From Morinoia aosen (Eukaryota; Arthropoda; Malacostraca; Amphipoda; Talitridae): DNA of 64,000 nucleotides. The DNA lies in the NCBI GenBank assembly GCA_030386875.1, contig CM059575.1, forward strand, positions 20,980,293 through 21,044,292, read 5' to 3'. Shown here piece after piece: positions 22,886-63,232 of the stretch. Within the stretch, counting starts at the first letter, position 1; the number at the start of each line of letters is the position of its first letter. The position numbers and the translations under genes are program-made. Below the pieces are notes generated by a model. It ran no database searches. It saw only the letters and a list, made by a program, of their open reading frames with translations, and was not told the DNA's origin.

Positions 22886-22964
22886 GGAGTTCTGCGTGTG
22901 GGACTTGAGAGACGGCCGCTGCCTGGAGGTGGTCACCTCACACAACGTGCACACTCACATCACT
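22886..22964 (+). CDS. WDR7: WDR7 coding exon 3 (residues 89-115)
   Basis: The acceptor is GCGCAG (ends 22885) and the donor is GTGAGT at 22965, phase 0. It encodes G-E-F-C-V-W-D-L-R-D-G-R-C-L-E-V, a WD40 blade with the conserved W-D and D-G-R-C of WDR7, followed by T-S-H-N-V-H-T-H. Its first base completes the split Gly codon from exon 2. Confidence 0.85.
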
Positions 22965-23373
22965 GTGAGTTCTGCCTGCTTTGGCAAAGACACTTAACTT
23001 CATTCCTAGACCTGAAAAATTTGTCATGAGTATAGAGTTGCTTTTCAATTTTCTCAGTGTATCGAGTGTATTGGTGAGAGTGACATTTTATATCACTTGA
23101 ATGATATAGTTTGGCCTATTTTCTCAATAAAAAATTTTGATCATGGTGAGCACTGCAGAGGTGGACTGCACGTTGTTATTGCTAGGGTCTTCTTTATTCC
23201 AAAATCTGTCAATGCGGGTTATCCATAATGAAATTCATCTAATCCAGTTGTTATGCTTGGAAATGGTTGTGACCCAGTTTTACTGCCCCCAAAATAATAT
23301 CACGTGAATTATTTTGCTCAAACTTTAATTCATCGGTAAAATATAAACAGTCCAGTGTGGCCAATGGTACCAA

Positions 23374-23574
23374 ATGCCAGGCCGAAAAGAGTAAGGCTGT
23401 TAGTAAAATCAATAGAGTAAACTGTCTATTGAGCCATATCAATCACAAGCTGCAAAGGGGTGCAGGCTGTTAGTAAAACAATAAGAGTAAACTGTCAGTT
23501 GAGCCCTATCAATTACTTGCCACGCAGGAGTAGAGACTATTGGTAAAATGGTGAAAGTAAACTGTCTGTTGCAG
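23374..23574 (+). repeat. Three-copy tandem duplication of the exon 4 acceptor region
   Basis: A unit of about 75-80 bp is present in full at about 23390-23434, 23466-23510 and 23530-23575: G.CTGTTAGTAAAA, then GAGTAAACTGTC and a TTGAG or TTGCAG, then CCATATCA. The last unit carries the true acceptor (TTGCAG|CCATATCAG, exon from 23575). The two upstream units read TTGAG at the same place. The repeat therefore includes the first bases of exon 4. Confidence 0.7.
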
Positions 23575-23743
23575 CCATATCAGATGCTGGGCACAAAGGA
23601 GTACCGGCTGTTCTGTGTGGGGAACTACCCTGAGATTCACATCTACGATCCTGCCTCCCTGCACCTGCTCTGTGTGCTCTCTAGCAGAGTCAATCCTGAC
23701 TGGATCGCTGCCATACATGTGCTCCGGCCCTCCAAACGTAACG
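23575..23743 (+). CDS. WDR7: WDR7 coding exon 4 (residues 116-172)
   Basis: The donor is GTGAGT at 23744, phase 1. It encodes P-Y-Q-M-L-G-T-K-E-Y-R-L-F-C-V-G-N-Y-P-E-I-H-I-Y-D. It then gives A-S-L-H-L-L and P-D-W-I-A-A-I, matching the WDR7 H-Y-P-E-I...D-A-T-S-L...P-D-W-I block. The acceptor sits at the end of a small tandem repeat, and a 3 kb minisatellite begins about 20 bases after the donor. Confidence 0.9.
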
Positions 23744-23761
23744 GTGAGTGCGTCAGATCTT

Positions 23762-26700
23762 CAGGGACAAATGACTATTGTATCAGTCATTTAGTTTGTT
23801 GAGGGACAAATGACTATTGTATCAGTCATTTAGTTTGTTGAGGGACAAATGCATCAGTCGTTTAGTTTGTTGAGGGACAAACGCATCAGTCATTTAGTTG
23901 TTTCAGTTAAACTGCATCAGTCATTTAGTTCAGTTAAAAGTGCAAGTCATTTATGTGGTTCAGTTACAACTGCATCAGTCGGTCTGTTGGTTCAGTTACA
24001 ACTGCATCAGTCATTCTGTTGGTTCAGTTACTATGCATCAGTCATTCAGTTGGTTCAGTTACCATGCATGTCATTTAGTTTGTTCAGTTACCATGCATCA
24101 GTCATTCGTTGGTTCAGTTACCATGCATCAGTCATTTAGTTGGTTCAGTTACCATGCATCAGTCATTCGTTGGTTCAGTTACCATGCATCAGTCATTTAG
24201 TTGGTTCAGTTACCATGCATCAGTCATTCAGTTGGTTCGGTTACCATGCATTAGTCATTCTGTTGGTTCAGTTACCATGCATCAGTCATTCGTTGGTTCA
24301 GTTACCATGCATCAGTCATTTAGTTGGTTCAGTTACCATGCATCAGTCATTCTGTTGGTTCAGTTACCATGCATCAGTCATTCAGTTGGTTCAGTTGCCA
24401 TGCATCAGTCATTCTGTTGGTTCAGTTACCATGCATCAGTCATTCAGTTGGTTCAGTTACCATGCATCAGTCATTCTGTTGGTTCAGTTACCATGCATCA
24501 GTCATTCAGTTGGTTCAGTTACCATGCATCAGTAATTCATTTGGTTCAGTTACCATGCATCAGTCATTCAGTTGGTTCAGTTACCATGCATCAGCCATTC
24601 TGTTGGTTCAGTTACCATGCATCAGTCATTCTGTTGGTTCAGTTACCATGCATCAGTCATTCGTTGGTTCAGTTACCATGCATCAGTCATTCTGTTGGTT
24701 CAGTTACCATGCATCAGTCATTTAATTGGTTCAGTTACCATGCATCAGTCATTTAATTAGTTCAGTTACCATGCATCAGTCATTCTGTTGGTTCAGTTAC
24801 CATGCATCAGTCATTCGTTGGTTCAGTTACCATGCATCAGTCATTCTGTTGGTTCAGTTACCATGCATCAGTCATTTAGTTGGTTCAGTTACCATGCATC
24901 AGTCATTTAGTTGGTTCAGTTACCATGCATCAGTCATTCAGTTGGTTCAGTTACCATGCATCAGTCATTCTGTTGGTTCAGTTACCATGCATCAGTCATT
25001 CAGTTGGTTCAGTTACCATGCATCAGTCATTCTGTTGGTTCAGTTACCATGCATCAGTCATTCAGTTGGTTCAGTTACCATGCATCAGTCATTCTGTTGG
25101 TTCAGTTACCATGCATCAGTCATTCTGTTGGTTCAGTTACCATGCATCAGTCATTTAGTTGGTTCAGTTACCATGCATCAGTCATTTAATTGGTTCAGTT
25201 ACCATGCATCAGTCATTCAGTTGGTTCGGTTACCATGCATCAGTCATTCTGTTGGTTCAGTTACCATGCATCAGTCATTCTGTTGGTTCAGTTACCATGC
25301 ATCAGTCATTCTGTTGGTTCAGTTACCATGCATCAGTCATTCTGTTGGTTCAGTTACCATGCATCAGTCATTCTGTTGGTTCAGTTACCATGCATCAGTC
25401 ATTCTGTTGGTTCAGTTACCATGCCTCAGTCATTCAGTTGGTTCAGTTACCATGCATCAGTCATTTAGTTGGTTCAGTTACCATGCATCAGTCATTCAGT
25501 TGGTTCAGTTACCATGCATCAGCCATTCTGTTGGTTCAGTTACCATGCATCAGTCATTCTGTTGGTTCAGTTACCATGCATCAGTCATTCGTTGGTTCAG
25601 TTACCATGCATCAGTCATTCTGTTGGTTCAGTTACCATGCATCAGTCATTTAATTGGTTCAGTTACCATGCATCAGTCATTTAATTGGTTCAGTTACCAT
25701 GCATCAGTCATTCTGTTGGTTCAGTTACCATGCATCAGTCATTCGTTGGTTCAGTTACCATGCATCAGTCATTCTGTTGGTTCAGTTACCATGCATCAGT
25801 CATTTAGTTGGTTCAGTTACCATGCATCAGTCATTTAGTTGGTTCAGTTACCATGCATCAGTCATTTAGTTGGTTCAGTTACCATGCATCAGTCATTCAG
25901 TTGGTTCAGTTACCATGCATCAGTCATTCTGTTGGTTCAGTTACCATGCATCAGTCATTCAGTTGGTTCAGTTACCATGCATCAGTCATTCTGTTGGTTC
26001 AGTTACCATGCATCAGTCATTCAGTTGGTTCAGTTACCATGCATCAGTCATTCTGTTGGTTCAGTTACCATGCATCAGTCATTCTGTTGGTTCAGTTACC
26101 ATGCATCAGTCATTTAGTTGGTTCAGTTACCATGCATCAGTCATTTAATTGGTTCAGTTACCATGCATCAGTCATTCAGTTGGTTCGGTTACCATGCATC
26201 AGTCATTCTGTTGGTTCAGTTACCATGCATCAGTCATTCTGTTGGTTCAGTTACCATGCATCAGTCATTCTGTTGGTTCAGTTACCATGCATCAGTCATT
26301 CTGTTGGTTCAGTTACCATGCATCAGTCATTCTGTTGGTTCAGTTACCATGCATCAGTCATTTAGTTGGTTCAGTTACCATGCATTAGTCATTCAGTTGG
26401 TTCAGTTACCATGCATCAGTCATTCAGTTGGTTCAGTTACCATGCATCAGTCATTCTGTTGGTTCAGTTACCATGCATCAGTCATTCGTTGATTCAGTTA
26501 CCATGCATCAGTCATTCAGTTGGTTCAGTTACCATGCATCAGTCATTCTGTTGGTTCAGTTACCATGCATCAGTCATTCTGTTGGTTCAGTTACCATGCA
26601 TCAGTCATTCTGTTGGTTCAGTTACCATGCATCAGTCATTCAGTTGGTTCAGTTACCATGCATCAGTCATTTAGTTGGTTCAGTTACCATGCATCAGTCA

Positions 26701-26795
26701 TTCAGTTGGTTCAGTTACCATGCATCAGTCATTCAGTTGGTTCAGTTACCATGCATCAGTCATTCAGTTAGTTCAGTTACAACTGCATCAGTTAT
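23762..26795. repeat. 31-bp minisatellite, about 90 copies, in intron 4
   Basis: The unit (GGTTCAGTTACCATGCATCA plus GTCATTCTGTT) has three main tail variants (CTGTT, CAGTT, TTAGTT) and a 30-bp form (CGTT). The left end shows the array being born: 38-bp units with GACTATTGTATCAGTCATTTAG at 23770-23850, then shorter intermediates, then pure 31-bp units from about 23990. Blocks of about 900 bp recur: 24590-25240 matches 25520-26200 with an offset of 928-959 bp, including shared rare variants (CAGCCATT, TTCGGTTACC). Since 31 is not a multiple of three, all three + frames stay open for long stretches; none is a gene. Confidence 0.9.
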
Positions 26796-27264: not shown

Positions 27265-27545
27265 GTAGTGTCACTAACACTGATGTCCCGCAGGCGTAGC
27301 TTGTGTACTAATACTGATGTCCCGCAGGCGTAGCTTGTATCACTAACACTGATGTCCTGTAGACGTACCTCGTGTCATTAAGACTGATGTCTGCAGACGT
27401 ACCTCGTGTCACTAACACTATGATGTCCTGCAGACGTACCTCGTTTCACTAACACTATGATGCTCTAGTAACACTGTGATGTTCCGCAGACCTACCTCGT
27501 GTCACTAACACTGTGATGTCCTACTAACACTGTGATGTCCCACAG
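27265..27545 (+). repeat. Tandem repeat of the exon 5 acceptor region, about 40-45-bp unit
   Basis: Seven or eight units read CACTAACACTGTGATGTCC followed by CGCAG, TGCAG or CACAG, then ACGTACCTCG or GCGTAGCTTG. The last unit ends in CCCACAG|ACGAAG, which is the true exon 5 acceptor. The unit so includes the acceptor and the first bases after it. Upstream units keep CAG in most cases (near 27290, 27327, 27409, 27433 and 27490). Confidence 0.75.
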
Positions 27546-27736
27546 ACGAAGTGGTGCTGGGAGTCACGCAAGGAGGCTGGGTGAAGGTGTGGACAGTGAG
27601 TGACAAGGACGTGCAGCGAGGGGATCCCATCAAGGAGCACGAGAGCAAGCGGATCAGGGCGAGCAACGCCAAGTGTCTGGTGTGCTGCGCCTTCAACCAG
27701 CGCACCGTGCTCATTGTCACGCCCAAGAGCTGGCAG
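27546..27736 (+). CDS. WDR7: WDR7 coding exon 5 (residues 172-235)
   Basis: The acceptor is CCCACAG and the donor is GTCTGT at 27737, a weak GT site, phase 0. It encodes E-V-V-L-G-V-T-Q-G-G-W-V-K-V-W-T-V, a WD40 blade, a charged linker, then C-L-V-C-C-A-F-N-Q-R-T-V-L-I-V and K-S-W-Q, matching the S-F-C-A-F-T-Q-R-S-L-L-V-V and Y-W-R of WDR7. The exon has strong G/C at third codon positions, unlike the intron DNA around it. Confidence 0.88.
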
Positions 27737-29075: not shown

Positions 29076-29224
29076 GTGTACGACGCGGGCGACTTCTCAC
29101 AACTAGCAGAGTGCAGCGTGCGGGACGGCGAGGCCACCTACAGCGGCGGCAGCTTCCTCAGCAACGAGACCGTCCTCGTCTGGGGCGAGAGCGGCCGCGG
29201 CTACATCTACAAGCTGCCCAACAA
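29076..29224 (+). CDS. WDR7: WDR7 coding exon 6 (residues 236-285)
   Basis: The acceptor is GTGCAG (ends 29075) and the donor is GTTAGC at 29225, phase 2. It encodes V-Y-D-A-G-D-F-S, then Y-S-G-G-S-F-L-S and V-L-V-W-G-E-S-G-R-G-Y-I-Y-K-L-P-N, matching V-F-D-A-G-D-Y...T-G-G-D-F...W-T-E-N-G-x-S-Y-I-Y-K-L-P of WDR7. The exon is very GC-rich. The split Asn codon is completed 22.5 kb downstream. Confidence 0.9.
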
Positions 29225-29350
29225 GTTAGCCTATGCCACCAATGAGCTGTTTGTTGAACATTTCTACAAGTTATTAAGTTATTCAGCTATGTATTAAGCA
29301 TTTGTACAAGTTATTCAGCTATGTATTGAGCATTTGTACAAGTTATCCTA
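29220..29350 (+). repeat. Tandem repeat of the exon 6 donor region
   Basis: The octamer ACAAGTTA, which spans the real donor (ACAA|GTTA at 29221), recurs at about 29267, 29306 and 29337 in units of 31-46 bp that also share TTCAGCTATGTATT and CATTTGT. The last unit again has ATCAATGAGC, as after the true donor (ACCAATGAGC). This is a donor-side counterpart of the acceptor repeats. Confidence 0.55.
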
Positions 29351-39592: not shown

Positions 39593-40100
39593 AGGAAATT
39601 TTCGCTGTTCCCTTTACCAAGTTTTTACTGGTACCAAATTATTGAATTATTGAGCTTGGTGAAGGGAAAGAAGTCGTAAACAAGGATTGATACAGGAATA
39701 CCTACTCACGAGCAGGTATCCAGCTGACCCGGCACCTTCTCGTGGTGGTACCGTTGAAATACCCAACTGCTCTTTCCTCTATCTTCTGAGTTTTCTTTCG
39801 AGGGATTAAGATTTTAGGTTTTTTTCAAATTCCCCGTTGTTGGGTAGAACAAAGTCGGGCGGCGGCCCGAGCTCTTCGGAGCTTGGGTCTCATTTGCGTA
39901 GTTATTTTCTCTTTAATTTGCCCTATACTCCAGGGCCCTTGAATAACCTATAAGAATAGACTTAAGCTACGCAGACCAATAGTCCATTTTGGACTACTAC
40001 TTTGGATCCCAAAGTTAAACTTTAAGCACTTCTGGCAACAATCAGCGAATACCTCAAACCCCGACTTTGAGGCGGGGAAACCCCCTCTGAAGCCGGGAGT
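39593..40100 (+). promoter_or_regulatory. LINE B 5' UTR
   Basis: Being the 5' end of a complete copy, it should carry the internal promoter. A GC-rich hairpin is visible at about 39868-39889 (CCCGAGCTC / GGAGCTTGGG), and a second one (GAGGCGGGG / CCCCCTC) lies 20-45 bases before the ORF1 start. Their roles are unknown. Confidence 0.5.
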
Positions 40101-42644
40101 ATGTACGCCAAAAATAAAAACAAATTAAAACAACGAATAAACCCCAACAAAAACAACCTAAGCACTGCTACCAGCGTAGGTGCAACAAACCCCAAAACTA
40201 ACACTATCACCAGGAAGATAAGCGAAAACAATGACACATCTGACCAAACAACCAAAAAAACTCCACCGGAACCAAACGGTGCTACCTGTAAGGTGGACCA
40301 ATTGGAGGCTAAATTAAATGAAGTGCTGAATAGACTTGCGGCAGGTGATGCAACCAAATGCATCAACCCCGATAAACATGAAGTTGAAAAGGAAGCACAA
40401 AATGTAGACGATCGAATAAGGAAAATCGAAAATACACTCGAAAAAATCCTAGAAATGACGAAAGCGCAGAACATAGGAAAAAACAGTAAAATTATGGGCT
40501 ACGAGAAAGAAAATGTGAGACAACAAAGCAAAGCTAACAAATACACACCCATATCGTTGAACCAAGAAATGACGAAGAACGACCATTATACAAAGTTCTT
40601 CTTGGTCAAATTCAAAATCGAAGAGAGAAACCAAATAAATCCATCTTGCCTCCAAGAAGAAATAGTCAAAATAACTGGTTTGAAGGCGAAAAGAATAACT
40701 TATTCAGGTAAAGATAGCTTTATCATAGAAACTCGAAACAAACCCCAATCTGAGCGCATCACCAGACTTACTAATGTCGACGGCATTAATTGCCAGATCA
40801 GCGAACACCCATACTACAATCAATCCAAAGGACTAATATATATTCAAGAATACGATGTAGATAATATGGAAGATTTTGTGGGAGGCCTGAAGAGCCAGTA
40901 CAATATCAGTGACGCTGTCCGTGCCAGCTTCATTAAAACTCGATTCTCCCAAACCACCCCACTCCTACTAACCTTTAATAGCTACACTACACCAGACTCT
41001 ATATATATCCCAGGCGAAAAATCAGATACGATAGTATACCCATTTATTAATAGACCAATGATCTGCCACAAATGTCAAAACTATGGCCACACAGCCAAAC
41101 ACTGCCATAACGAAGCAAACTGTAAACGCTGCGGAGAAACAGGCCATGACAGCGAACACTGTGGCAGCACCCTCTCCTGCATGCATTGCAAGCGTCAACA
41201 TGAAACTGGCCACAGAGAATGCCCGAAACATATCATGGAAACAGAAATATGCAAAGTCCAACAAGAACAACGAGTTAATAGGCGTCGTGCTGTACAGATA
41301 GTCACAGGACACTCCGAGATACCAATATCAGATACGAACACCCCCACAACTCATTTCAATATAACGATGCAGGAAAACGAAAAGCGGAAAATTACTCCAT
41401 GGCTCCTAGAAAAATGTATTGCAAACCAAATTCAAGGAAAACCCAAATCTATTCGATTGGGCGGCAAAAACACATTTATTGTAGAATTAGATCACACACG
41501 ACAAAAAGATGAAATACAGAAAATCAAAGACATAAACAACATCCCTGTGCAAGTAACAGAAAATAACTATGTAAATCTTTCAAAAGGACTCGCCTACATC
41601 TATAACTACGACTTCACCAACTTCGAGAAATTCAAACAAGGTTTAATGGAAAACCATATAATCAAAAATGTTGAACCAGCAAATTGGATAAAAAGCCGTA
41701 ACACAAATGCAAAAGCAATACTTCTAACTTTCAGAGGCTCAACCCCCCCTGAGTATATCGACATCCTTGGCCAAGACTGCAAGAGTAGGATATATGAATA
41801 CTTCGACCGCCCTATGATGTGTAAAAAGTGCTTGGAATACAACCATACTGCTAAAAGATGTACCAGTGAAGAGTTCGTGTGTGGAAAATGCGCAACAAAA
41901 GGCCATGAAACAACAAATTGCACGGAAAACAACTTGACATGCTATCACTGCGGAAACAATCACAAAACTGGAGACCGGACTTGCCCGGAACAACGCAAGC
42001 AACAAGAACTAATTTCTATCCGTACTAAACAAAACGTATCAAGAGAACAAGCCCTTATGATATACCACAAACGATCCCCACAACTCGATCAAAGCTACGC
42101 ACAAATAACCAGAAATCGAACGGATCAAATACCCAAAGTACCAACCCCCCAACCCTTTATGGCGGCTACCAAAAACCAAACGATCACCGAACAAAATATG
42201 GCTCCCCCACTTTGTAACGAAACAGGTATAACTTATAACACAACCGATACACCAGAAACCAAACCACCGCAAACTTCACAACGCGACCACGAAACATGCG
42301 AAAAAGAAATACTCCGCATTAAACCCAACCCAACACAATTGCTCAAACCCTCAATTAATATTGAAACTACAGCCGAAGGATCTGAAAATGAGGAAGATGG
42401 CACGAGCGAATGCAACCCTATTATGAGACAAGAAGCCAGACGAATATTCAACGAATTCAAACCCCCAAAGCAGCACAAACCTTCCAAAACCCCAAACAAG
42501 AAGCGACCAAGATCACGATCAAAATCACGATCCCCCACCTACAGCCGCAACAGACATGATAAACAACAAATTTACTCAGATGAGGAACAATCACACTACT
42601 CTCGAGACTCTAGGATTAGAGATAGATCACCCAAAAGAAAGTAA
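40101..42644 (+). CDS. LINE B ORF1: Gag-like protein with duplicated RNA-binding module
   Basis: 847 codons, intact. Residues 63-120 are charged and likely coiled-coil. Module 1 (about 165-400) has an RRM-like region (S-K-G-L-I-Y-I at 242) and three CCHC knuckles (from C322: C-H-K-C-Q-N-Y-G-H). Module 2 (about 425-650) repeats the layout (S-K-G-L-A-Y-I at 494; knuckles from C574: C-K-K-C-L-E-Y-N-H). The shift between both landmarks is 252 residues, so this is a whole-module tandem duplication. The C-terminus (about 795-847) is R/S-rich (S-R-S-K-S-R-S). ORF1 proteins coat element RNA; one module would be usual. The ATG at 40101 is the first in frame after the UTR hairpins. Confidence 0.85.
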   Translation: MYAKNKNKLKQRINPNKNNLSTATSVGATNPKTNTITRKISENNDTSDQTTKKTPPEPNGATCKVDQLEAKLNEVLNRLAAGDATKCINPDKHEVEKEAQNVDDRIRKIENTLEKILEMTKAQNIGKNSKIMGYEKENVRQQSKANKYTPISLNQEMTKNDHYTKFFLVKFKIEERNQINPSCLQEEIVKITGLKAKRITYSGKDSFIIETRNKPQSERITRLTNVDGINCQISEHPYYNQSKGLIYIQEYDVDNMEDFVGGLKSQYNISDAVRASFIKTRFSQTTPLLLTFNSYTTPDSIYIPGEKSDTIVYPFINRPMICHKCQNYGHTAKHCHNEANCKRCGETGHDSEHCGSTLSCMHCKRQHETGHRECPKHIMETEICKVQQEQRVNRRRAVQIVTGHSEIPISDTNTPTTHFNITMQENEKRKITPWLLEKCIANQIQGKPKSIRLGGKNTFIVELDHTRQKDEIQKIKDINNIPVQVTENNYVNLSKGLAYIYNYDFTNFEKFKQGLMENHIIKNVEPANWIKSRNTNAKAILLTFRGSTPPEYIDILGQDCKSRIYEYFDRPMMCKKCLEYNHTAKRCTSEEFVCGKCATKGHETTNCTENNLTCYHCGNNHKTGDRTCPEQRKQQELISIRTKQNVSREQALMIYHKRSPQLDQSYAQITRNRTDQIPKVPTPQPFMAATKNQTITEQNMAPPLCNETGITYNTTDTPETKPPQTSQRDHETCEKEILRIKPNPTQLLKPSINIETTAEGSENEEDGTSECNPIMRQEARRIFNEFKPPKQHKPSKTPNKKRPRSRSKSRSPTYSRNRHDKQQIYSDEEQSHYSRDSRIRDRSPKRK

Positions 42645-42687
42645 CTAATTGAACGATTGAATAACAAAATCAAATCAAACACACCCC

Positions 42688-45219
42688 ATGGCTAACGTAG
42701 GAATCCTGCAGTGGAACTGCCAAGGCATCAGGGGAAAGAAAGATGAACTAATGGAAACAATAAACAACCACCAACCCAGTATAATAGCACTTCAAGAAAC
42801 AAAGCTATGGGATAACTGCCAGTTTAGAATAAACGGCTACAGTAATGTGCTACGACACCATCATTACAACAGAACCCCCCATGGAGGTGTTGGAATATAT
42901 GTCCATAGCTCAATACCTTTTTGTGAACTGAATCTACAGACTGAACTACAAAGCGTGGCCATTCAAGTAAACATAGGACAGCTGATAACCATCTGCAGCA
43001 TCTACATACCCGGTAGACAAACAGTCACAAACAAAAAACTAAATAACCTAATCCACCAACTACCGAATCCTTTCATCCTAGCCGGCGACTTCAACGGACA
43101 CAGCACCATATGGGGCTGCAAGAATACAGATAATAGGGGGAAGCTGATAGAAACTGTTATTACAAACAATAACCTTTGCCTATTAAATACCGGTTCACCC
43201 ACTAGAATAGGATACAATTCAGAATCAGCTATTGATCTGACAATTTGCTCACCTACATTGGCTGTGCTATTAGACTGGGTTGCTTTCGATTCGCCGGGTG
43301 ATAGCGATCATTGCCCAATTTTGATCACCTACCTTAACGAAAATCGTCCCAACCAACCCCCATCAACTATCTGGAACTACTCAAAAGCTAACTGGGATCT
43401 ATATTCCAATAACAATGCATGGAACAAGCCGATGTTGAACACAACAACTAATAACGAACAACTACTCACCGACTTATACCAGCGGTTCTACTCAGCAGCT
43501 GAAAAAGCCATCCCAACTTATATACCAGGAAAATACTATCCCAAACCATGGTGGACAAAAGAACTCCAAGAATCAAAAGAAGAAAGAGAAAAACTTTACA
43601 AGAAATACCACCGCAATAAAAATCTTACTAACTTAATTAACTGGAAACGAGCAAGGGCAAATCATAAATACAAAATCCGAGCAAGCAAACAGGAAACGTG
43701 GAAGAATTTCGTAAACCAACTTAATAAATATACACCAATGGCCAGAGTATACGAAACAATAAGGAAAATAAAAGGTCGAGTACAAAGAAAAGTCCATATA
43801 TTGATCAAAAACAATATACACTACAGCACAATCCCTGATATTGTGAATAAACTGGCTGAGAATTTCAGCGAAGTGTCAAGCGATCAAAGCTATTCCCCTG
43901 AATTTCAACAAATAAAAACCGCAAATGAAACTATACCGATCCATTTCAGTTCGCCAAACGTAGAAATCTATAACCAAACTTTCCATATGCATGAATTTGA
44001 ATCCGCCCTAAGAAAAACTAAAAACACATCACCAGGAAACTACAAAATAACATACGACATGATCAAACACCTAAAACTACCAGCTAAACAATACATCTTG
44101 AACACTTTTAACAAATTCTGGACAACGGGCTACTTCCCACCACAATGGCAGCACTCGATAATAATACCAATCCCAAAACCCGGGAAAGACCATAGTAAAC
44201 CAAATAACTACAGACCCATCGCACTCACGAGCTGTCTGTGCAAATTAATGGAACGAATGATCAATAATCGACTGATAGAATACTTAGATATGCACAATAT
44301 AATTAGTAAAGAGCAGTGTGGATGCAGAAAGGGGCGTAGCACTACAGATCTGGTCAGACTAGACTCAACCATAAGATTAGCATTCGCAAACAGAGAACAC
44401 TTCATCTCAGTGTTCTTCGACCTTGAAAAAGCTTACGACAGAACATGGAGATATGGGATCATACGGGATTTATTCGATATCGGACTCAGGGGCAGATTAC
44501 CAACTTTTGTCGCCAAATTCCTAGAATGTAGAACACTAAGTGTCCGAATAGACAACTATAGCTCAAATATTTACGAACAGCGAAACGGAGTCCCTCAAGG
44601 CAGTGTCCTCTCGGTCACGTTATTCGCCCTCAAAATAAACGACATAGCCAAGCAGATCCCACCGGACAACAAATTCCACCACTCACTATACGTTGACGAC
44701 TTACAAGTTGGATACCACCACCAAGACCTCAAGGTTATCCAAGACAAAATGCAATCCTGTATTAATAAAATATTTAAGTGGTCCCAAAATCATGGCTTCA
44801 AATTCTCATCCAGTAGAAGCAAAGCAATACATTTCAATACCATACCCGGACTCTTCCTCAGCCCAATACTTAAACTCAATGATGAAAACATTCAATACAC
44901 AAACTCACATAAATTCCTCGGCCTGATTTTTGATGAAAAATTGAACTGGCAACAACACATCACTGCTTTAAAGAAAAAAGGGAATGATAGCCTGAACTTA
45001 TTAAAATCAATAACAGCTCAAAGCTGGGGAGCAGACCAAACCACGATCCTCAAAATCTATCGAAGCATTACAAGATCAATCCTCGATTATGGATCAATAA
45101 TCTATAACTATGCCAGCCAAACAACTCTAAAGCCCATCGAGTCTATTACATCCGAAGCACTACGAATCGCTACAGGAGCATTCAAATCCAGCCCAATAAA
45201 TAGTCTACACATTATTTGA
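42688..45219 (+). CDS. LINE B ORF2, endonuclease and reverse transcriptase
   Basis: 843 codons to a TGA. Endonuclease (residues 1-230): L-Q-W-N-C-Q-G-I, L-Q-E-T-K-L (Glu37), G-D-F-N-G-H (Asp133), A-I-D-L-T and D-S-D-H-C-P (His208). RT: N-Y-R-P-I-A-L (about 507), F-F-D-L-E-K-A-Y-D (about 577), G-V-P-Q-G-S-V-L-S (about 634), Y-V-D-D (about 668). All catalytic residues are present. The ATG at 42688 has CACCCC before it, a fair start context. It begins 43 bases after ORF1. The frame continues in phase past the TGA into RNase H, so the stop most likely is a recent nonsense change in a polyprotein of about 1240 residues. Confidence 0.9.
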   Translation: MANVGILQWNCQGIRGKKDELMETINNHQPSIIALQETKLWDNCQFRINGYSNVLRHHHYNRTPHGGVGIYVHSSIPFCELNLQTELQSVAIQVNIGQLITICSIYIPGRQTVTNKKLNNLIHQLPNPFILAGDFNGHSTIWGCKNTDNRGKLIETVITNNNLCLLNTGSPTRIGYNSESAIDLTICSPTLAVLLDWVAFDSPGDSDHCPILITYLNENRPNQPPSTIWNYSKANWDLYSNNNAWNKPMLNTTTNNEQLLTDLYQRFYSAAEKAIPTYIPGKYYPKPWWTKELQESKEEREKLYKKYHRNKNLTNLINWKRARANHKYKIRASKQETWKNFVNQLNKYTPMARVYETIRKIKGRVQRKVHILIKNNIHYSTIPDIVNKLAENFSEVSSDQSYSPEFQQIKTANETIPIHFSSPNVEIYNQTFHMHEFESALRKTKNTSPGNYKITYDMIKHLKLPAKQYILNTFNKFWTTGYFPPQWQHSIIIPIPKPGKDHSKPNNYRPIALTSCLCKLMERMINNRLIEYLDMHNIISKEQCGCRKGRSTTDLVRLDSTIRLAFANREHFISVFFDLEKAYDRTWRYGIIRDLFDIGLRGRLPTFVAKFLECRTLSVRIDNYSSNIYEQRNGVPQGSVLSVTLFALKINDIAKQIPPDNKFHHSLYVDDLQVGYHHQDLKVIQDKMQSCINKIFKWSQNHGFKFSSSRSKAIHFNTIPGLFLSPILKLNDENIQYTNSHKFLGLIFDEKLNWQQHITALKKKGNDSLNLLKSITAQSWGADQTTILKIYRSITRSILDYGSIIYNYASQTTLKPIESITSEALRIATGAFKSSPINSLHII

Positions 45220-45225
45220 AATGAA

Positions 45226-46413
45226 ATGCCTCCCGATCTTAGGCGAAACTATCTATCCCTCTGTTATTACTACAAAATCCGAAGTCAACATGGAAACCCC
45301 GCCTTCAATTACACTGTGACGCCGAGTAACCGACTACTCTTCCAAAATAGGAAAATAACTCCAACATTCGCTATTAAAATGCAAATACTGATAGAAAAAT
45401 TTGGCCTCCGGAAAAATCGAGTTAAACCAGACTTTTCATACCGACTACTAAACATTACTACTCCCACATGGGCACTAACAAAACCAACAATAAATACCGA
45501 CCTCACTGAACTACCAAAAAACGAAACCCCTGAACACATAATCCGTCAAGAGTTTAAAAGAATGACCAAAGAAAAATATGACGGATATGTAACTATATAC
45601 ACAGACGGCTCAAGAGGAGAAAATGGCACAGGAGCGGCAGCAGTATGTGGCACCATTGTCCGCTCTGCAACGCTACCGAAAGAGGCCTCAATATACTCAG
45701 CCGAAATACATGCCATCCACTTGGCCCTTGGCATCATTAATGAAAAAAGAGATAAAAAATTCGTAATTTACTGCGACTCCTTGAGTGTCGTTAACAGCCT
45801 AAAGTACGAGACATACCATCCAGTACTACGCCGAATACAACACGACATACACGAAAAACAAAAAGGCGGCAAAGCCATCAACATATGCTGGATCCCCTCC
45901 CATGTCGGAATAGGCGATAACGATGCTGCAGACACTGCAGCCAAGAACGCAACCCAAAAAAACGAAGAATTTATCCTAATTTGCTACACAGATTGGAAAC
46001 CATTAATTCGACAAGCCGTGATTAACCAGTGGAAAACTAGGTGGGAAAATTGCAGAGACAAATTAAGGGAAATACAACCATCACCAGGAATAGAGTTGGA
46101 CTTCGGTAAAATATCACGTAAAGAGGAGATAATAGTTAACAGACTCAGAATAGGACATACACTCTTAACACATGGCTACCTGATGAATAATGAAGTACCC
46201 GATATCGCACCAGTATGCGAGCTTTGCAATAACTCAACACTAACAGTCAAACATCTAATCATAGAATGTGAAAGTCTCACCAATAGTAGAAATTGTATAA
46301 AGGCTTGCCGAACGCTACAACGACCTACCGTCGAGACGGTATTGGGACGCCAATTAGACGTTAGAGAATTGATGAACTATCTTCGTGTGATAGACGCTTA
46401 TGACCTAATTTAA
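45226..46413 (+). CDS. LINE B ORF2, RNase H and C-terminal zinc motif (after in-frame TGA)
   Basis: Same frame as the RT part. After a linker, residues 123-250 form an RNase H domain with I-Y-T-D-G-S (Asp), S-A-E-I-H-A-I (Glu), Y-C-D-S-L (Asp) and N-D-A-A-D (Asp), the full DEDD set. Then a CX2CX7HX4C tail motif (C-E-L-C-N-N-S...H-L-I-I-E-C). RNase H would degrade the RNA strand during second-strand synthesis. The ATG at 45226 is only the first Met after the TGA. Without readthrough or a repaired stop this part would not be made as part of ORF2. Confidence 0.85.
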   Translation: MPPDLRRNYLSLCYYYKIRSQHGNPAFNYTVTPSNRLLFQNRKITPTFAIKMQILIEKFGLRKNRVKPDFSYRLLNITTPTWALTKPTINTDLTELPKNETPEHIIRQEFKRMTKEKYDGYVTIYTDGSRGENGTGAAAVCGTIVRSATLPKEASIYSAEIHAIHLALGIINEKRDKKFVIYCDSLSVVNSLKYETYHPVLRRIQHDIHEKQKGGKAINICWIPSHVGIGDNDAADTAAKNATQKNEEFILICYTDWKPLIRQAVINQWKTRWENCRDKLREIQPSPGIELDFGKISRKEEIIVNRLRIGHTLLTHGYLMNNEVPDIAPVCELCNNSTLTVKHLIIECESLTNSRNCIKACRTLQRPTVETVLGRQLDVRELMNYLRVIDAYDLI

Positions 46414-50663: not shown

Positions 50664-51745
50664 AGGGAAACACTCCTACACACGGTGTGCGTGATGTTCC
50701 AAGACATGACACACTCCTACACACGGTGTGCATGATGTTCCAAGACATGACACACTCCTACACACGGTGTGCGTGAGGTTCCAAGACATGACATGCTCCT
50801 ACACATGGTGTGCATGATGTTCCAAGACATGACACTCCTGCACATGGTGTGCGTGATGTTCCAAGACATGACATGCTCCTACACATGGTGTGCATGATGT
50901 TCCAAGACATGACACTCCTGCACATGGTGTGCGCGATGTTCCAAGATATGACACACTCCTACACACGTGCGTGATGTTCCAAGACATGACATGCTCCTAC
51001 ACACGGTGTGTGTGATGTTCCAAGACATGACACACTCCTACACACGGTGTGCGTGATGTTCCAAGACATGACATGCTCCTACACACGGTGTGCATGATGT
51101 TCCAAGACATGACATGCTCCTACACACGGTGTGTGTGTGTGATGTTCCAAGACATGACACACTCCTACACCTAGTGTGCGTGATGTTCCAAGACATGACA
51201 CACTCCTTCACATGGTGTGTGGGATGTTCCAAGACATGACACACTCCTACACACGGTGTGCGTGATGTTCCAAGACATGACATGCTCCTACACACGGTGT
51301 GCATGATGTTCCAAGACATGACATTCTCCTACACACGGTGTGTGTGTGATGTTCCAAGACATGACATTCTCCTACACACGGTGTGTGTGTGTGATGTTCC
51401 AAGACATGACACACTCCTACACACGGTGTGCGTGATGTTCCAAGACATGACATGCTCCTACACACGGTGTGCATGATGTTCCAAGACATGACATGCTCCT
51501 ACACACGGTGTGTGTGTGTGATGTTCCAAGACATGACACACTCCTACACCCAGTGTGCGTGATGTTCCAAGACATGACACACTCCTTCACATGGTGTGTG
51601 GGATGTTCCAAGACATGACACACTCCTACACACAGTGTGCATGATGTTCCAAGACATGACACTCCTTCACATGATGTGCGTGATGTTCCAAGACATGACA
51701 CGCTCCTACACATGGTGTGTGTGATGTTCCAAGACATGATACACT
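50664..51745. repeat. Minisatellite, about 41-45-bp unit, abutting exon 7
   Basis: About 25 units share GATGTTCCAAGACATGACAC and TCCTACACACGGTGTG. Length differences come from GT expansion and loss of a few bases. Larger blocks also recur (51020-51240 resembles 51410-51620). The array ends 22 bases before the exon 7 acceptor. Confidence 0.85.
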
Positions 51746-51767: not shown

Positions 51768-51858
51768 TTGTGTGGTGGGCACCAAAGAATTTCACCGGAA
51801 GCAGGCAGACGATGCAAGCCCAATTCTAATCGGAATCTGCAAAGCGCCGTCGGCTAAC
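51768..51858 (+). CDS. WDR7: WDR7 coding exon 7 (residues 285-315)
   Basis: The acceptor is GTTACAG (ends 51767) and the donor is GTAAGT at 51859, phase 0. Its first base completes the split Asn codon of exon 6, and the frame reads C-V-V-G-T-K-E-F-H-R-K-Q, then D-A-S-P-I-L-I-G-I. It occupies the poorly conserved linker of WDR7 between the Y-I-Y-K-L-P segment and the next blade, so support comes mainly from phase, good splice sites and the K-E-F-H...P-I pattern of arthropod homologues. Confidence 0.75.
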
Positions 51859-53870: not shown

Positions 53871-53871
53871 T

Positions 53872-54394: not shown

Positions 54395-54785
54395 GATGTC
54401 AGCTCATCTTCCGTGTGTAGACAATCAGCTACTTGCACGATCACAGTAAACACACCAGCTGCCCCATAATTCTGACACTGAACAGGTCACACCACCGTAA
54501 ATGCACCAGCTGCCCCCACAATTCTGACAAAGAACAGCTCCTGTAAACACACCAGCTGCCCCCCACGATTCTGACAACAAGCAGCTTGCATAAACACACT
54601 AGTTGCCCTCTCAATTCTTACAACAAACAGCTTGCATTGCCTGTAAACACACCAGCTTCCCTCCACAATTTAGACAACAAACAGCTCCTGTAAGCACACC
54701 CGCTGCCTCCACAATGTTGGCAACGAACAGCTCGCACCGCCTGTAATCACACACCAGCTGCCCCCACAATTACAACACTAAACAG
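54395..54785 (+). repeat. Tandem repeat of the exon 8 acceptor region, about 45-bp unit
   Basis: About seven units read CACACCAGCTGCCCCCACAA, then TTCTGACAACAAACAG and CTC or CTT. The final unit ends ACTAAACAG|CTCTCG at 54785, the acceptor used for exon 8. Upstream units keep the AACAG (near 54485, 54537, 54584, 54631, 54676 and 54729). The left 100 bases (54395-54492) are also present as a copy in intron 9 (58110-58213). Confidence 0.75.
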
Positions 54786-55071
54786 CTCTCGAAGACATGC
54801 TACAAGCTCACCCAAATGGCGCTCCCCGTGCAGCCGCTGGTGACGCCGCCGTCGTGGCAGTACCAGATGATCCCGGTGCAGAGCGGCGCCGAGAAACTGC
54901 TGGTGAGGGGCGACAGCGAGGGCAGCGTCGTGCTCTGGAGAATCAAAGACCTGCAGCCGCAGGACCTGCAGAAGCTGTTGGCCGTGAAGCCTGTGCAGCC
55001 CACCACGACCAAGATCACCGTGCACACCTCCCTCCAGCAGGAGTGGGCTAAGCTCGACCCACCTCCTGTTG
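54786..55071 (+). CDS. WDR7: WDR7 coding exon 8 (residues 316-411)
   Basis: Acceptor AACAG (ends 54785), donor GTGAGT at 55072, phase 1. It encodes P-S-W-Q-Y-Q-M, then E-K-L-L-V-R-G-D-S-E-G-S-V-V-L-W-R-I and, near its end, L-Q-Q-E-W-A-K-L-D-P-P-P-V-G, matching H-K-L-L-I-Q-G-D-S-S-G...W and L-Q-E-A-F-D-K-L-N-P of WDR7. An AG at 54805-54806 would shorten the exon by 21 bases in frame and is the alternative start. The 54786 site was chosen because it keeps the frame and sits at the end of an acceptor-bearing repeat. Confidence 0.85.
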
Positions 55072-57757: not shown

Positions 57758-57964
57758 GGCTGCTGGACCACGTGGCGCCGGTGGAGGGGCTGTGCGGCGG
57801 TCGGAGCGGCGGTGGCAGCGCGGAAGGGAACAGGGTATGTGCCACTCTGTTCCTCGGAACGCAGGGCCGTGTCGCGTGTGGCAGAGAGGACGGTAGCATC
57901 CTGCTCCTGCCTGCCACCGAGGCTATCATGCTCCACCTCCTGCATACTGAGCAGCCCCAGCATA
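57758..57964 (+). CDS. WDR7: WDR7 coding exon 9 (residues 411-480)
   Basis: Acceptor TGCCCAG (ends 57757), donor GTGAGT at 57965, phase 1. It encodes L-L-D-H-V-A-P, a Gly/Ser-rich loop, then C-A-T-L-F-L-G-T-Q-G-R-V-A-C-G-R-E-D-G-S-I-L-L-L-P-A-T-E-A. This matches G-R-L-V-C-G-R-E-D-G-S-I-V-I-V-P-A-T, one of the most conserved WDR7 blades. Confidence 0.92.
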
Positions 57965-58109
57965 GTGAGTGGTGTTGGTGTCGCGTGCTGCTTCTAATAT
58001 CTGTCAATACCTAAATATGTGTAACAGGCATTAAGCCTTTAACGCCCACATTATACAATATATTATTGTTATTTTTGAAAGAGGACCGTACAGTCCACTT
58101 CGGCGTTTT

Positions 58110-58213: not shown

Positions 58214-58234
58214 GTGTGTGTGTGTATCAAATGG

Positions 58235-58830: not shown

Positions 58831-58904
58831 TGTTGCCAGCACTGAACGAGCGGCTCTCCCCCTATTAGTTCCCCAAGTGTGGGGTAGTTAAAGCTCCCCA
58901 GTTT

Positions 58905-59445: not shown

Positions 59446-59887
59446 GTTCTTGAGATCGCCTCTGTTGGAGCTAGGGAGTCTTAAACTAATATTAGGTAAA
59501 TATTAATAACCCCACAATAGTTATAATAAAGTGGAGGTGAATAAAGTTTAATCTGATTTCCCTATAGAAAGTAATATTCTTAATATAGAACATTTTGTTT
59601 TGTAATTAAGATTTAGTAATAATGTCTGGAGAAAATGAACGCTATTGATGTACTTTGGTATGTACTTTTGAAATTTGATATTAATTCAAAAACTCTTGAA
59701 CTAGTCATTTCAAATATATCAAGATGGTGTCAATCTCATTTAAAAATACGGATTTCATAATTAATTACTTTGTTAATTTAGAGAACAGTGCTTTACTACT
59801 TGTGCATATGAAATTTTCAATAGCCACGTAGCACGCAAATAAGAACACCCGATTGAGGACGCTCAGCAAATTTCTCGTGTTTGACAG
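59446..59887. other. End of intron 9, no feature recognised
   Basis: AT-rich DNA leading to the exon 10 acceptor (TTGACAG). Confidence 0.4.
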
Positions 59888-60186
59888 GCGTGTCGCAGAG
59901 CATGATACTGAGAGGACACGAGCGCCGGGTGACGTGTCTGCTCTACCCTCATGGGGAGAGCGGCGGAGGAGTGGGAGGAGGTGGCGGTGGGATGAGTGGC
60001 GGAGGTGGTATTGGCACCAGTGCTGGCTCCCCACCATCCCCCCGGTACCCTGCAAATCAGCTCGTGTCAGGAGGAGCTGACTTTGCCGTCATCATCTGGG
60101 ACCTGACCACCGGGGCGCAGCTGCAGCGGTTTGTGGTGCAGGCTGGGCCTGTGCTGCAGCTCATGATCACTCCCAGCACCTGCTCT
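59888..60186 (+). CDS. WDR7: WDR7 coding exon 10 (residues 480-579)
   Basis: Acceptor TTGACAG, donor GTGAGT at 60187, phase 0. It encodes S-M-I-L-R-G-H-E-R-R-V-T-C-L-L-Y-P-H-G-E and, after a loop, Q-L-V-S-G-G-A-D-F-A-V-I-I-W-D-L-T-T-G, matching T-L-R-G-H-R-N-K-V-T-C-L-L-Y-P...I-S-G-G-V-D-F-S-V-I-I-W-D. Between them lies a Gly/Ser/Pro-rich insertion of about 35 residues, much longer than the short V-S-A-R-Y-D-Q loop in vertebrates. It ends with V-L-Q-L-M-I-T-P-S-T-C-S. Confidence 0.93.
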
Positions 60187-60254
60187 GTGAGTATGTCATG
60201 TCTTGTGGAATGTGAGGGCTCTCATGTCCCAGCAATGTAGTATTTTTGCGTTGC

Positions 60255-60500
60255 TGGGTTTGGCCATTTAACGAAAGGTGCCCTTTGGAGTGCCAATCTA
60301 TGCTTCTCTTATAGCAAAGGATACTCATTTGCCAAGTCGTGCTTTTGTTGCGGCAGTTCATTTTCTTGGTTTAGAAACTATGTTTATGTGCCAAACTATT
60401 CTCTTGTAGCAAACAATTCTCACGTGCCGAACTATGCTCTCAGTGTAGCAAACGATACTCATCCACCAAACTGCCCGTTGTCCTCCAAACCAAGCACGCT
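60255..60500. repeat. Degenerate tandem repeat, about 40-bp unit, intron 10
   Basis: About six loose units share GTGCCAAACTATGCTCT and TAGCAAACGATACTCA. Confidence 0.45.
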
Positions 60501-60644
60501 CGCTGCTTGCTTTAAAAATGCTATCTACGCACTCTGGTTTGAGTCGTGCTTCTTTGAGCGAGCACGCTCTTCGGAGCCCTGCCCAGTGTGGAACTGCGGG
60601 ATTGTCCTGTGCGTGGCAGAGATGGGTGGTGCGCAGGTGTCTCT

Positions 60645-60940
60645 CAGGGGGACACATCTATTGTATCTGGGAATTAGCGCTCCCAGAGGTAACGTGAGGT
60701 CTTCAGCTGATGGTAAAGAGGTCATCCCTTTTGCTGAAATAGGAGAGGTTTTTTGTTTTAAGGATAATCTTTTTCGGTTCACTACTGTCCTAAATTTCAG
60801 TTCCAATCACTGTCTTCATCAACTTTAATCTTGTTTTGTAACTGCATGAATTCCACGTTCCCTAAATTCCAAACTAAATGGTACCTTCATCCTTCCTCTC
60901 TTTGGAGTACCTTTGTTGTGATTAGGATAACAAAACTGAA
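60645..60940 (+). repeat. Interspersed repeat family R1, copy 6
   Basis: Contains CTCAGGGGGACACATCTATT, GAATTAGCGCTCCCAGAG, GGTTCACTACTGTCC and CTTTGTTGTGATTAGG. Its 3' end passes without a break into the 77-bp minisatellite. Confidence 0.65.
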
Positions 60941-62306
60941 TTACAAAATAATCCCTCAACTATATAAAAAAGGATGCTTTCTTCCTTCTTCTCTTTGGGA
61001 CACATTAGTTATCGTTATGAAGGCTTATACAATCTAATCTAAACTCTCAACTTTGTACAAAGTGATACTTTCACCCTTCCTCTCTTTGCAACACCTCGGC
61101 TGTGGTGTGAGGGAGACTTGAACTAACAAGCTAATCTAACCCGTCAATGCTATACAAAATGCTACTTTCACCGTTCCTATGTTTGGACAACTCGGCTGAG
61201 GTGTAAGGGAGGCTTAACTAACTTACAAACTAATCCCTCACCCTTCCTCTCTCTGGACCACCTGTGTAGTGGTGCAAGGGAGGCTGGAACTAACGCTCTA
61301 ATTTATGCAAAACGCTACTTTCACCCTTCTCCTTTGTGGACCACCCCAACGCAAGGGAGGCTGGAACTAATACGCTAATGTATGCAAAATGTTACTTTCA
61401 CCCTTCCCTTCTGTGAACCACCCCAACGCAAGGGAGGCTGGAACTAATACGCTAATGTATGCAAAACACTACTTTCACCCTTCCCTTCTGTGGACCACCC
61501 CAATGCAAGGGAGGCTGGAACTAATACGCTAATGTATGCAAAATGTTACTTTCACCCTTCCCTTCTGTGAACCACCCCAACGCAAGGGAGGCTGGAACTA
61601 ATACGCTAATGTATGCAAAACACTACTTTCACCCTTCCCTTCTGTGAACCACCCCAATGCAAGGGAGGCTGGAACTAATACGCTAATGTATGCAAAATGT
61701 TACTTTCACCCTTCCCTTCTGTGGACCACCCCAACGCAAGGGAGGCTGGAACTAATACGCTAATGTATGCAAAACACTACTTTCACCCTTCCCTTCTGTG
61801 GACCACCCCAACGCAAGGGAGGCTGGAACTAATACGCCAATGTATGCAAAACACTACTTCCACCCTTCCCTTCTGTGGACCACCCCAACGCAAGGGAGGC
61901 TGGAACTAATACGCTAATGTATGCAAAATGTTACTTTCACCCTTCCCTTCTGTAGACCACCCCAACGCAAGGGAGGCTGGAACTAATACGCTAATGTATG
62001 CAAAATGTTACTTTCACCCTTCCCTTCTGTAGACCACCTCAACGCAAGGAAGGCTGGAACTAACACGCTAATGTCTGCAAAACACTACTTCCACCCTTCC
62101 TACTGTGGACCACCCCAACGCAAGGGAGGCTGGAACTAACACGCTAATGTATGCAAAACACTACTTCCACCCTTCCCTTCTGTGGACCACCCCAACGCAA
62201 GGGAGGCTGGAACTAACATGCTAATGTATGCAAAACATACTTTCACCCTTCTTCTCTTTGGACCATCCCAATGCAAAGAATGCTGAAACTAATACGCTGT
62301 GGGCAG
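60941..62306 (+). repeat. 77-bp minisatellite, about 16 copies, running into the exon 11 acceptor
   Basis: The unit (GGAGGCTGGAACTAATACGC, ATGTATGCAAAA, CTACTTTCACCCTTCCCTTC and GGACCACCCCAACGCAAG) is exactly 77 bp, for example from 61433 to 61510. The first, irregular units (about 60960-61300) still read like the tail of repeat R1 (CTTCCTCTCTTTGGA, GGTGT.AGGGAGGCTTAAACTAAC). The last unit breaks at AATACGCTGTGGGCAG, where CAG (ends 62306) is the exon 11 acceptor. Confidence 0.85.
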
Positions 62307-62502
62307 GTGCGGGTGCAGCAGTGCGTGGTGAGCGTGGCAGGGGACCACAGCGTGGCGCTGCTCAGCCTGAAGGAGGCGCGGGTGGTGCTGCTGGCCGCCC
62401 ACCACCCCTGCCCAGTCACCGCCCTCAAGTGGCGGCCCCTGCACGACTTCATGGTCGTCGCTACGCAGGACGGAGCTGTGCATGTCTGGCAGATGGAGAC
62501 AG
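62307..62502 (+). CDS. WDR7: WDR7 coding exon 11 (residues 580-645)
   Basis: Acceptor GGGCAG, donor GTTGGT at 62503, phase 1. It encodes V-R-V-Q-Q-C-V-V-S-V-A-G-D-H-S-V-A-L-L-S-L, then V-T-A-L-K-W-R-P-L-H-D-F-M-V-V and D-G-A-V-H-V-W-Q-M-E-T-G, matching [20 protein letters not shown]...K-W-R-P-S-D-D-Y-L-V-V...D-G-S-V-Y-V-W-Q-M-D-T-G. This is the best-conserved exon. Its 3' end is the seed of the next array. Confidence 0.95.
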
Positions 62503-62880
62503 GTTGGTGTGTGTGTGTGTCTGGCAGATGGAGACGGGTGGGTGTGTGTGTCTGGCAGATGGAAACAGGTGGGTGTGTCTGACAGATGGAGATAGATGGG
62601 TGTGTGTGTCTGGTAGATGGAGAAAGGTGGGTGTATGTCTGGCAGATGGAGACAGGTGGGTGTGTGTGTCTGGCAGATGGAGACAGGTCGGTGTGTGTGT
62701 GTCTGGCAGATGGAGACAGGTCGGTGTGTGTGTGTCTGGCAGATGGAGACAGGTGGGTGTGTGTGTCTGGCATACGGAGACAGGTGGGTGTATGTGTCTG
62801 GCAGATGGAGACAGGTTGGTGTTTGTGTGTCTGGCAGATGGAGACAGTTGGGTGTGGAGCAGGTGGGTGTGAGTGTGTCT
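62486..62880 (+). repeat. Minisatellite made of repeated exon 11 donor junctions
   Basis: About 11 further units of roughly 30-33 bp read GTCTGGCAGATGGAGACAGG plus TGGGTGTGTGTGT. The first unit is the end of exon 11 itself (C-T-G-G-C-A-G at 62486 to the donor GTTGGT), so each unit repeats coding bases, the splice donor and the start of the intron. Most copies keep a G|GTGGGT or G|GTCGGT donor-like sequence. The frames across it read M-E-T-G-G-C-V-like repeats and are not coding. Confidence 0.88.
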
Positions 62881-62995
62881 GACAGCAACATGACCCCAAC
62901 ATTACAGCAACATGACCCCAACATTACAGCAACATGACCCCTAATATTACAGCAACATGACCCCTAATATTAGAGCAACATGACCCCCAAAATCC
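62881..62995. repeat. 20-bp tandem repeat upstream of exon 12
   Basis: Six units of ACAGCAACATGACCCCAACATT-like sequence. A partial unit (ACAGCAACATACGATG) lies at 63017-63032, 10 bases from the exon 12 acceptor. Confidence 0.75.
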
Positions 62996-63041
62996 CAGTA
63001 TCCCCACCCCATCACCACAGCAACATACGATGCCTCCGCAG

Positions 63042-63232
63042 GGCACCTGGACCGCGTGGCTACGGGCGTGGTGGCGGAGGAGCTGCTGGCGGCATCAGAA
63101 GACCTGGGTGGCGGGGGCGGGGGCAGCGTGGGGGCGGGCGGAGACGGGCAGGCGGGGCTCGCCAACCCCGCCATCCACCTGCTGCGGGGACTGCGCCACC
63201 GCAACCTCGCCGCCATCCGACATGCCGCGCAG
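63042..63232 (+). CDS. WDR7: WDR7 coding exon 12 (residues 645-708)
   Basis: Acceptor TCCGCAG (ends 63041), donor GTATGG at 63233, phase 0. It encodes H-L-D-R-V-A-T-G-V-V-A-E-E-L-L-A-A, a Gly-rich loop, N-P-A-I-H-L-L-R-G-L-R-H-R-N-L-A-A-I-R-H-A-A-Q, matching A-L-D-R-C-V-M-G-I...E-I-L and H-P-A-V-N-L...R-R-S-L-A-A-L-K-N-M. It leads into the linker after the first propeller region. About half of the protein (vertebrate length about 1490) lies beyond the right edge. Confidence 0.9.

Follow-up and report, generated by a model that had tools for sequence, protein, structure and literature searches.

Tandem repeats that span exon-intron boundaries have been described in lancelets as 'mirages', in the Adh3, globin, troponin C and PGBD5 genes (PMC3087553, PMC3902484). 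These papers report repeats on both donor and acceptor sides that carry AG or GT in many of their units and are unstable in length, with normal splicing of the affected genes (globin, by reverse transcription-PCR, and Adh3), and suggest that new introns could be made from them. Segments that contain splice sites and are duplicated in tandem have also been reported to give rise to introns, in potato RdRp (PMC4974935) and in Drosophila (PMC2891723). Among the matches listed in the open-licence literature, none described boundary minisatellites of the mirage type for an arthropod; the Drosophila work concerns introns formed by tandem duplication. Here we describe such arrays in the talitrid amphipod Morinoia aosen, starting from a stretch of 64,000 nucleotides (nt) at C20:20980293-21044292 (contig CM059575.1 of assembly GCA_030386875.1; hereafter the window), which holds part of the gene WDR7 (Rabconnectin-3 beta). 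We file these arrays as mirages, a kind known from lancelets and found here in an arthropod. The exon-edge arrays probably arose when short segments containing or adjoining an exon-intron boundary were duplicated in tandem.

Human PRPF8, CLTC, COPA, POLR2A and XPO1 sequences served as queries against the same genome (1.99 Gb in 29 contigs); the POLR2A and XPO1 loci were fetched in part and COPA was mapped in part. Seven gene loci yielded 85 introns and 170 junctions (27 introns from WDR7, 21 from CLTC, 5 each from COPA and PRPF8, 7 from XPO1, 13 from RPB1a and 7 from RPB1b, a decayed second POLR2A locus). Two introns with poor support, one in COPA (9289-14522) and one in RPB1b, were left out, as were a COPA pair without a junction and two pairs in RPB1b that represent frame breaks instead of introns, and XPO1 intron 1376-2461 was kept though loosely aligned. 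In a test independent of Tandem Repeats Finder (TRF), 30 exon and 12 intron nt at each junction were aligned to as much as 700 nt of the neighboring intron and to the introns of other genes, with the 99.9% level of these mismatched introns as the threshold for a duplicated junction. By this measure, 14 of the 170 junctions were duplicated, compared to 0.14 expected, and both sides contributed (8/85 donors and 6/85 acceptors; 0.07 expected each). Duplicated junctions occurred in WDR7, CLTC, COPA, XPO1, PRPF8 and RPB1b, thus in five of the six intact genes and in one decayed locus. The look-alike splice sites that the initial annotation of the window had attributed to tandem duplication across WDR7 junctions are therefore present in WDR7 and in other genes.

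Inspection of 13 of the 14 duplicated junctions (7 donors, 6 acceptors) revealed 6-44 exon nt common to the copy in the adjacent intron. The best-matching copies retained GT at 6 of the 7 donors and AG at 5 of the 6 acceptors, and 8 of the 13 copy distances were not multiples of three, as expected by chance. CLTC intron 13 provides a textbook case, with TTTTCTTGCAG plus 23 exon nt located 61 bp upstream of the real acceptor. The matches at CLTC intron 14, a donor above and an acceptor at the threshold, were just 13-15 nt long and lie outside the inspected set. An earlier variant of the test, which compared the exon edge alone with the adjacent intron, was less sensitive (4/54 top-ranked, roughly 1 expected) and has been superseded.

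The stop-codon region of CLTC is tandemly duplicated as well (113 bp x 2, C15:16021607-16021831), the same pattern at the other coding end. The two POLR2A loci, C14:17817001-17827000, which has frame breaks or stops and looks decayed, and C20:36934001-36944000, have matching introns. Several distant RPB1-like matches (27-38% identity), each contained in one uninterrupted open frame of 1222-1433 amino acids and apparently intronless, form a cluster at C27:58.6-70.1 Mb, with another match at C26:21.18 Mb; they possibly derive from an endogenous large DNA virus or belong to another polymerase family.

Where along the intron local duplication is concentrated was apparent from its profile over all 85 introns. 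Duplicated sampling windows made up 8-9% at the junction, 9% at 1-15 nt, 15-22% at 16-100 nt, 7-10% at 101-150 nt and 2-8% deeper. The excess is located in the outer 16-100 nt of the intron, off the splice site itself, and this placement is well supported. In the 52 introns that reach 600 nt or more, paired comparison gave a duplicated fraction of 0.185 at 1-100 nt and 0.067 beyond 200 nt (p=0.00026); the difference persisted without window introns 1-11 (p=0.0005, 42 introns) and in the genes other than WDR7 (p=0.0096, 26 introns), and was significant for a single gene only in WDR7. Chance matches to mismatched targets were alike near junctions (21/3303, 0.64%) and deep in introns (9/1500, 0.60%). 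In a four-gene set, the paired excess was also found in introns of at least 800 nt (p=0.017), and local duplication at the junctions themselves (12/116, 10.3%) exceeded that of deep-intron sampling windows, in which each array was counted by one unit only (393/6960, 5.6%; Fisher p=0.04, the samples not being independent). The initial annotation's suggestion that duplication is preferential at splice sites is thus sustained only in part: the enrichment concerns the outer 100 nt of introns, and spanning of the junction is not significantly enriched.

The placement of TRF arrays points the same way. When arrays were re-placed randomly within their own WDR7 introns, 4.2 of the 54 junctions were expected to have an array within 30 nt, compared to 12 observed. 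For spanning, this first permutation null and the tiny p value it gave were rejected as unfair, since arrays could hardly land across junctions. A fair null, in which founding units were free to fall across junctions, was applied to 116 junctions of four genes. Under this null, an array lay within 30 nt at 17 junctions (7.43 expected, p=0.0001) and within 100 nt at 26 (13.6 expected, p<0.0001), and an array adjacent to but not spanning the junction occurred at 10 (3.14 expected, p=0.0008). For window introns 1-11, 7 of the 22 junctions had an array within 30 nt (3.59 expected, p=0.025); the counts were 5 for WDR7 introns 12-27 (2.17 expected, p=0.032) and 5 for the other three genes (1.67 expected, p=0.0115). 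PRPF8 (3 vs 0.53 expected) carries the last result more than CLTC, and the COPA introns used had no near array with an expectation of 0. The coincidences of arrays with exon edges, which the initial annotation considered too frequent in one gene to be dismissed, are thus modestly so for the window and solidly so once the introns and genes it had not seen are added.

Several results weigh against a preference for exon edges and against its generality. Junction-spanning arrays numbered 7 compared to 4.29 expected under the fair null (116 junctions), which is not significant (p=0.11). In the introns of at least 600 nt, duplicated junction sampling windows (7/104) were no more frequent than deep ones, which indicates that crossing of the junction as such is not favored there; the remaining half of the junction matches lie in introns shorter than 600 nt. 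Over the four genes, the junction-to-deep ratio of 2.0 has a bootstrap interval of 0.95-3.5, and the paired excess at the flanks lost significance when shorter introns were excluded, with p=0.11 at a minimum length of 1500 nt and p=0.17 at 2500 nt. CLTC alone had no array excess (2 vs 1.14 within 30 nt), and RPB1a had no duplicated junction among 26. When WDR7 introns 12-27 were taken by themselves, a null matched for guanine-cytosine (GC) content gave p=0.066 for arrays within 30 nt; like the first permutation null, it hardly spans junctions. The sample consists of seven self-chosen loci, and exon borders were set by homology rather than by RNA.

Within the window, the arrays take several forms. 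With 100 kb downstream added, the map of WDR7 comprises 28 exons, all bordered by GT/AG, and a single open frame that runs for 1582 residues before its stop; 12 exons lie inside the window and 16 further downstream, and all join in frame. This homology-based map agrees with the exon numbering of the initial annotation. By identity, the most similar of the 120 homologs listed was a partial protein of Trinorchestia longiramus, also a talitrid amphipod, with 88% identity across 61% of the query. TRF arrays with periods of at least 6 cover 22 kb of the 97-kb gene. Exon 10 encodes a Gly-rich stretch unlike that of Trinorchestia in length. Two non-LTR (long terminal repeat) retrotransposons, so labeled from their reverse-transcriptase-like open frames, occupy window positions 2597-6555 and 40071-46413, the second within WDR7 intron 6. 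The coordinates of exons and arrays are collected in Table 1.

Table 1. Exons of WDR7 in the window and the tandem arrays near their borders (window positions)
Feature	Position	Strand	Remarks
WDR7 exon 1 (from ATG)	16493..16648	+	no array nearby
WDR7 exon 2	19769..19878	+	
WDR7 exon 3	22886..22964	+	
exon 4 acceptor-spanning array	23385..23612	+	unit ~70 bp x 3.2
WDR7 exon 4	23575..23743	+	
array after exon 4 donor	23763..26792	+	starts 19 nt past donor; mostly 31 bp; 3030 bp here, 992 bp in second copy
exon 5 array	27268..27547	+	34-bp units; ends 2 nt inside exon 5
WDR7 exon 5	27546..27736	+	
WDR7 exon 6	29076..29224	+	
claimed exon 6 donor repeat	29276-29346	+	51 nt downstream of exon 6
array before exon 7	50670..51745	+	41-bp unit; 22 nt gap to acceptor
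WDR7 exon 7	51768..51858	+	
array before exon 8	54497..54788	+	AAACAG look-alikes; 45 nt gap to acceptor
WDR7 exon 8	54834..55071	+	acceptor GTGCAG/CCG
WDR7 exon 9	57758..57964	+	
WDR7 exon 10	59888..60186	+	Gly-rich coding repeat at 59971-60002
array before exon 11	61274..62298	+	77 bp unit; ends 8 nt short of acceptor; 1025 bp here, 717 bp in second copy
WDR7 exon 11	62307..62502	+	
exon 11 donor array	62483..62871	+	31 bp unit = exon 11 end + donor
array before exon 12	62882..63026	+	15 nt gap here, 54 nt in second copy
WDR7 exon 12	63042..63232	+	

The initial annotation had made eight statements about arrays at these borders, five of which hold. The array at exon 4 contains the acceptor (23575) and 38 exon nt, and that at exon 11 repeats the end of the sequence encoding VWQMETG together with the donor (62502), with 37 exon nt common to one copy. 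The arrays upstream of exons 7, 11 and 12 stop just short of the acceptor, as had been described. At exon 5 the claim survives in part: the acceptor (27546) is repeated, with an exon portion of just 2-3 bases (2 by TRF). This array is a run of near-complete 3' splice-site cassettes, in which a branch-point-like CTAAC is followed by CCGCAG or similar at ~34 nt spacing; the junction similarity test was weak there (score 21, attained by 1.5% of the null). The two remaining statements do not stand. The repeat said to contain the exon 6 donor begins beyond the donor at 29224, and its 13-nt match, attained by 1.4% of the null, is unconvincing. The array said to include the exon 8 acceptor holds only CAG look-alikes and ends before the true acceptor at 54834. 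An acceptor inside this array (AAACAG ending at 54785) was rejected, as homologs place the acceptor 48 nt further on; the Trinorchestia sequence across this border reads APSAN-PQVTPPAW, and the lengths in Petrolisthes and Caerostris agree by eye.

Outside the window, arrays also span the acceptor of exon 20, with 2 copies of a 38-bp unit that includes 12 exon nt, and the donor of exon 27, with 2.3 copies of a 164-bp unit that includes 39. At exons 4, 11, 20 and 27, the exon part of the unit encodes residues that align with the WDR7 of other arthropods, and this conservation suggests that the exon would be the source and the intronic copies derived. In a single array, that at exon 27, two changes are common to both intronic copies and absent from the exon copy, an observation that bears on whether the boundary unit of a mirage escapes homogenization. 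The decoy donors in the exon 11 array scored up to 9.5 compared to 5.8 for the real donor, in a simple weight matrix with approximate values.

A second, inverted copy of the WDR7 region lies 0.83 Mb away on the same scaffold (C20:20170657-20270656), with a near-identical match to exon 11 at C20:20208156-20208356. Its exons 1-19 are unchanged in length, lack stops and are 98.6-100% identical to those of the window copy (exons 20-28 fall outside the compared stretch), and non-array intron sequence differs by ~1%. This copy is either a recent duplicate or the other haplotype, misplaced. Arrays occupy the same junctions in both copies, including the exon 20 and exon 27 duplications, so that an assembly artefact, the possibility attached to the initial annotation, is unlikely, with the qualification that both copies come from one assembly. 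Array lengths differ (window copy/second copy: intron 4, 3030/992; intron 8, 2041/414; intron 10, 1025/717; intron 11, 389/304; intron 12, 645/756; intron 15, 355/56 bp), and the copies are separated by 61 insertions or deletions (indels) of 5 nt or longer, of which 42 touch arrays. Array-to-junction distances are mostly identical (82, 61, 22, 45, 8, 26, 31, 21, 19, 51 and 14 nt), with exceptions on the acceptor side of introns 11 (15/54 nt), 8 (345/356) and 9 (1062/1239) and on the donor side of introns 14 (110/175) and 17 (860/821). This indicates that arrays grow by insertion of units mostly without nearing the exon, and that the distance to the junction therefore marks the founding event.

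We believe these observations are best accommodated as follows. In the loci sampled, short local tandem duplication is common in introns and roughly threefold denser in their outer 100 nt than deeper in the same introns. Certain duplicated segments cross the boundary, as seen at the spanned junctions, and bring a splice site with adjoining exon sequence into the intron. Such a duplication would be tolerated, because the intact exon keeps an intact splice site beside it and the message is unchanged if this exon-proximal site is used; duplications entirely within exons would be purged. Units are later gained or lost on the intron side, with the distance to the junction mostly fixed, as between the two locus copies. 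The flank may be favored, most plausibly, by a mix of a higher birth rate near the GC-rich exon edge and shelter from indels, which at this place would damage the exon. A more tentative proposal, which we hold possible and somewhat doubtful, is that in this crustacean lineage the outermost 100 nt of an intron form a genuine hotspot for the birth of tandem duplications.

In introns so rich in minisatellites, with over a fifth of WDR7 in arrays, some arrays must hit splice sites by plain coincidence, without any preference for exon edges. The spanning counts are compatible with this, in the window (3 vs 2.16 expected, p=0.35) as in the four genes, and deep-intron sampling windows are themselves duplicated at 5-6%; in introns of 600 nt or more, junction sampling windows (7/104) equal the deep ones (0.067). 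We nevertheless regard coincidence as quite improbable in view of the strong excess beside junctions, within 100 nt, which is repeated in introns outside the initial annotation. The excess might instead follow from composition only, with GC-rich sequence seeding minisatellites and exons being GC-rich (63%, compared to 40% in introns), so that their edges are seeded. Accordingly, 18 arrays within 60 nt of an exon had 49% GC and 30 farther arrays 38% (p=0.002), and GC matching raised the expected number of WDR7 junctions with an array within 30 nt from 4.2 to 6.0, which reduces the excess from 2.9-fold to 2-fold and so tells against our interpretation too. However, 12 observed still exceeded 6.0 (p=0.0006), and duplication density remained 17-21% at 61-100 nt, while intron GC reaches background by 50-100 nt; composition is thus an unlikely explanation on its own.

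Duplications may also arise evenly and persist longer beside exons, where deletions and transposon insertions are purged, deep introns being younger; survival rather than birth is a possibility to which we give limited weight. Consistent with it, the two copies differ by 19 indels of 5 nt or more outside arrays, and not one of these fell within 100 nt of a junction, though with 2.5 kb examined and ~0.9 expected such numbers are much too low to tell birth from survival. Recognized dispersed repeats were rare near junctions (18/1101 sampling windows at 16-100 nt). Against survival, the excess stayed once such repeats were removed (18.3% near vs 2.9-7.2% deeper), and beyond 1000 nt repeat-derived sampling windows were more duplicated (70/812) than unmasked ones (84/2868); the mask behind both comparisons was built solely from the analyzed stretches and is hence partial. 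Lastly, the repetition could be adaptive, with copied branch points, acceptors or donors strengthening exon recognition or providing alternative splicing in large introns. The CTAAC and CAG cassettes at exon 5 and the good splice sites retained in many copies would fit this, as would a report of a Caenorhabditis elegans minisatellite over-represented near alternative splicing (PMC4039745). On the other side, copy numbers vary widely between the near-identical locus copies, copy distances in multiples of three are at chance level, and the copies are known here from DNA sequence. We consider an adaptive origin very unlikely, and favor duplication of segments at or beside the boundary.

New introns and alternative exons have been proposed to originate from splice junctions duplicated in tandem, and in the papers considered here boundary minisatellites come from a handful of lancelet genes. 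Their occurrence in five of six intact conserved crustacean genes plus a decayed seventh locus makes this a countable and testable process. If the outer intron is indeed a birth hotspot, near-identical spare splice sites would constantly be made beside roughly one in 12 exon edges, a stock from which intron sliding, alternative splicing and the gain of introns could draw at any time. For gene annotators, strong-looking splice sites beside exons can be copies.

The amphipod arrays share head-to-tail units, unstable length and a GC content slightly above that of the intron (0.451 vs 0.400) with ordinary intronic minisatellites, or variable-number tandem repeats; unlike these, some of their founding units contain a splice junction, and units that adjoin one outnumber the expectation. 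As in the accounts of intron gain by tandem duplication, of which the Drosophila paper likewise concerns arthropods, extra copies of splice sites are created, but here the copies sit in existing introns. The resemblance to lancelet mirages extends to short units in which an exon edge is combined with AG or GT, the involvement of donors as well as acceptors, unit sizes of tens to ~160 bp, lengths that vary between copies and several affected genes per genome. Splicing and somatic instability have been studied in lancelets, whereas the amphipod case is known from the DNA sequence of one assembly. It differs from the lancelet cases in its arthropod host, in its occurrence in most of the intact conserved genes sampled, and in a measured excess in the outer 100 nt of introns.

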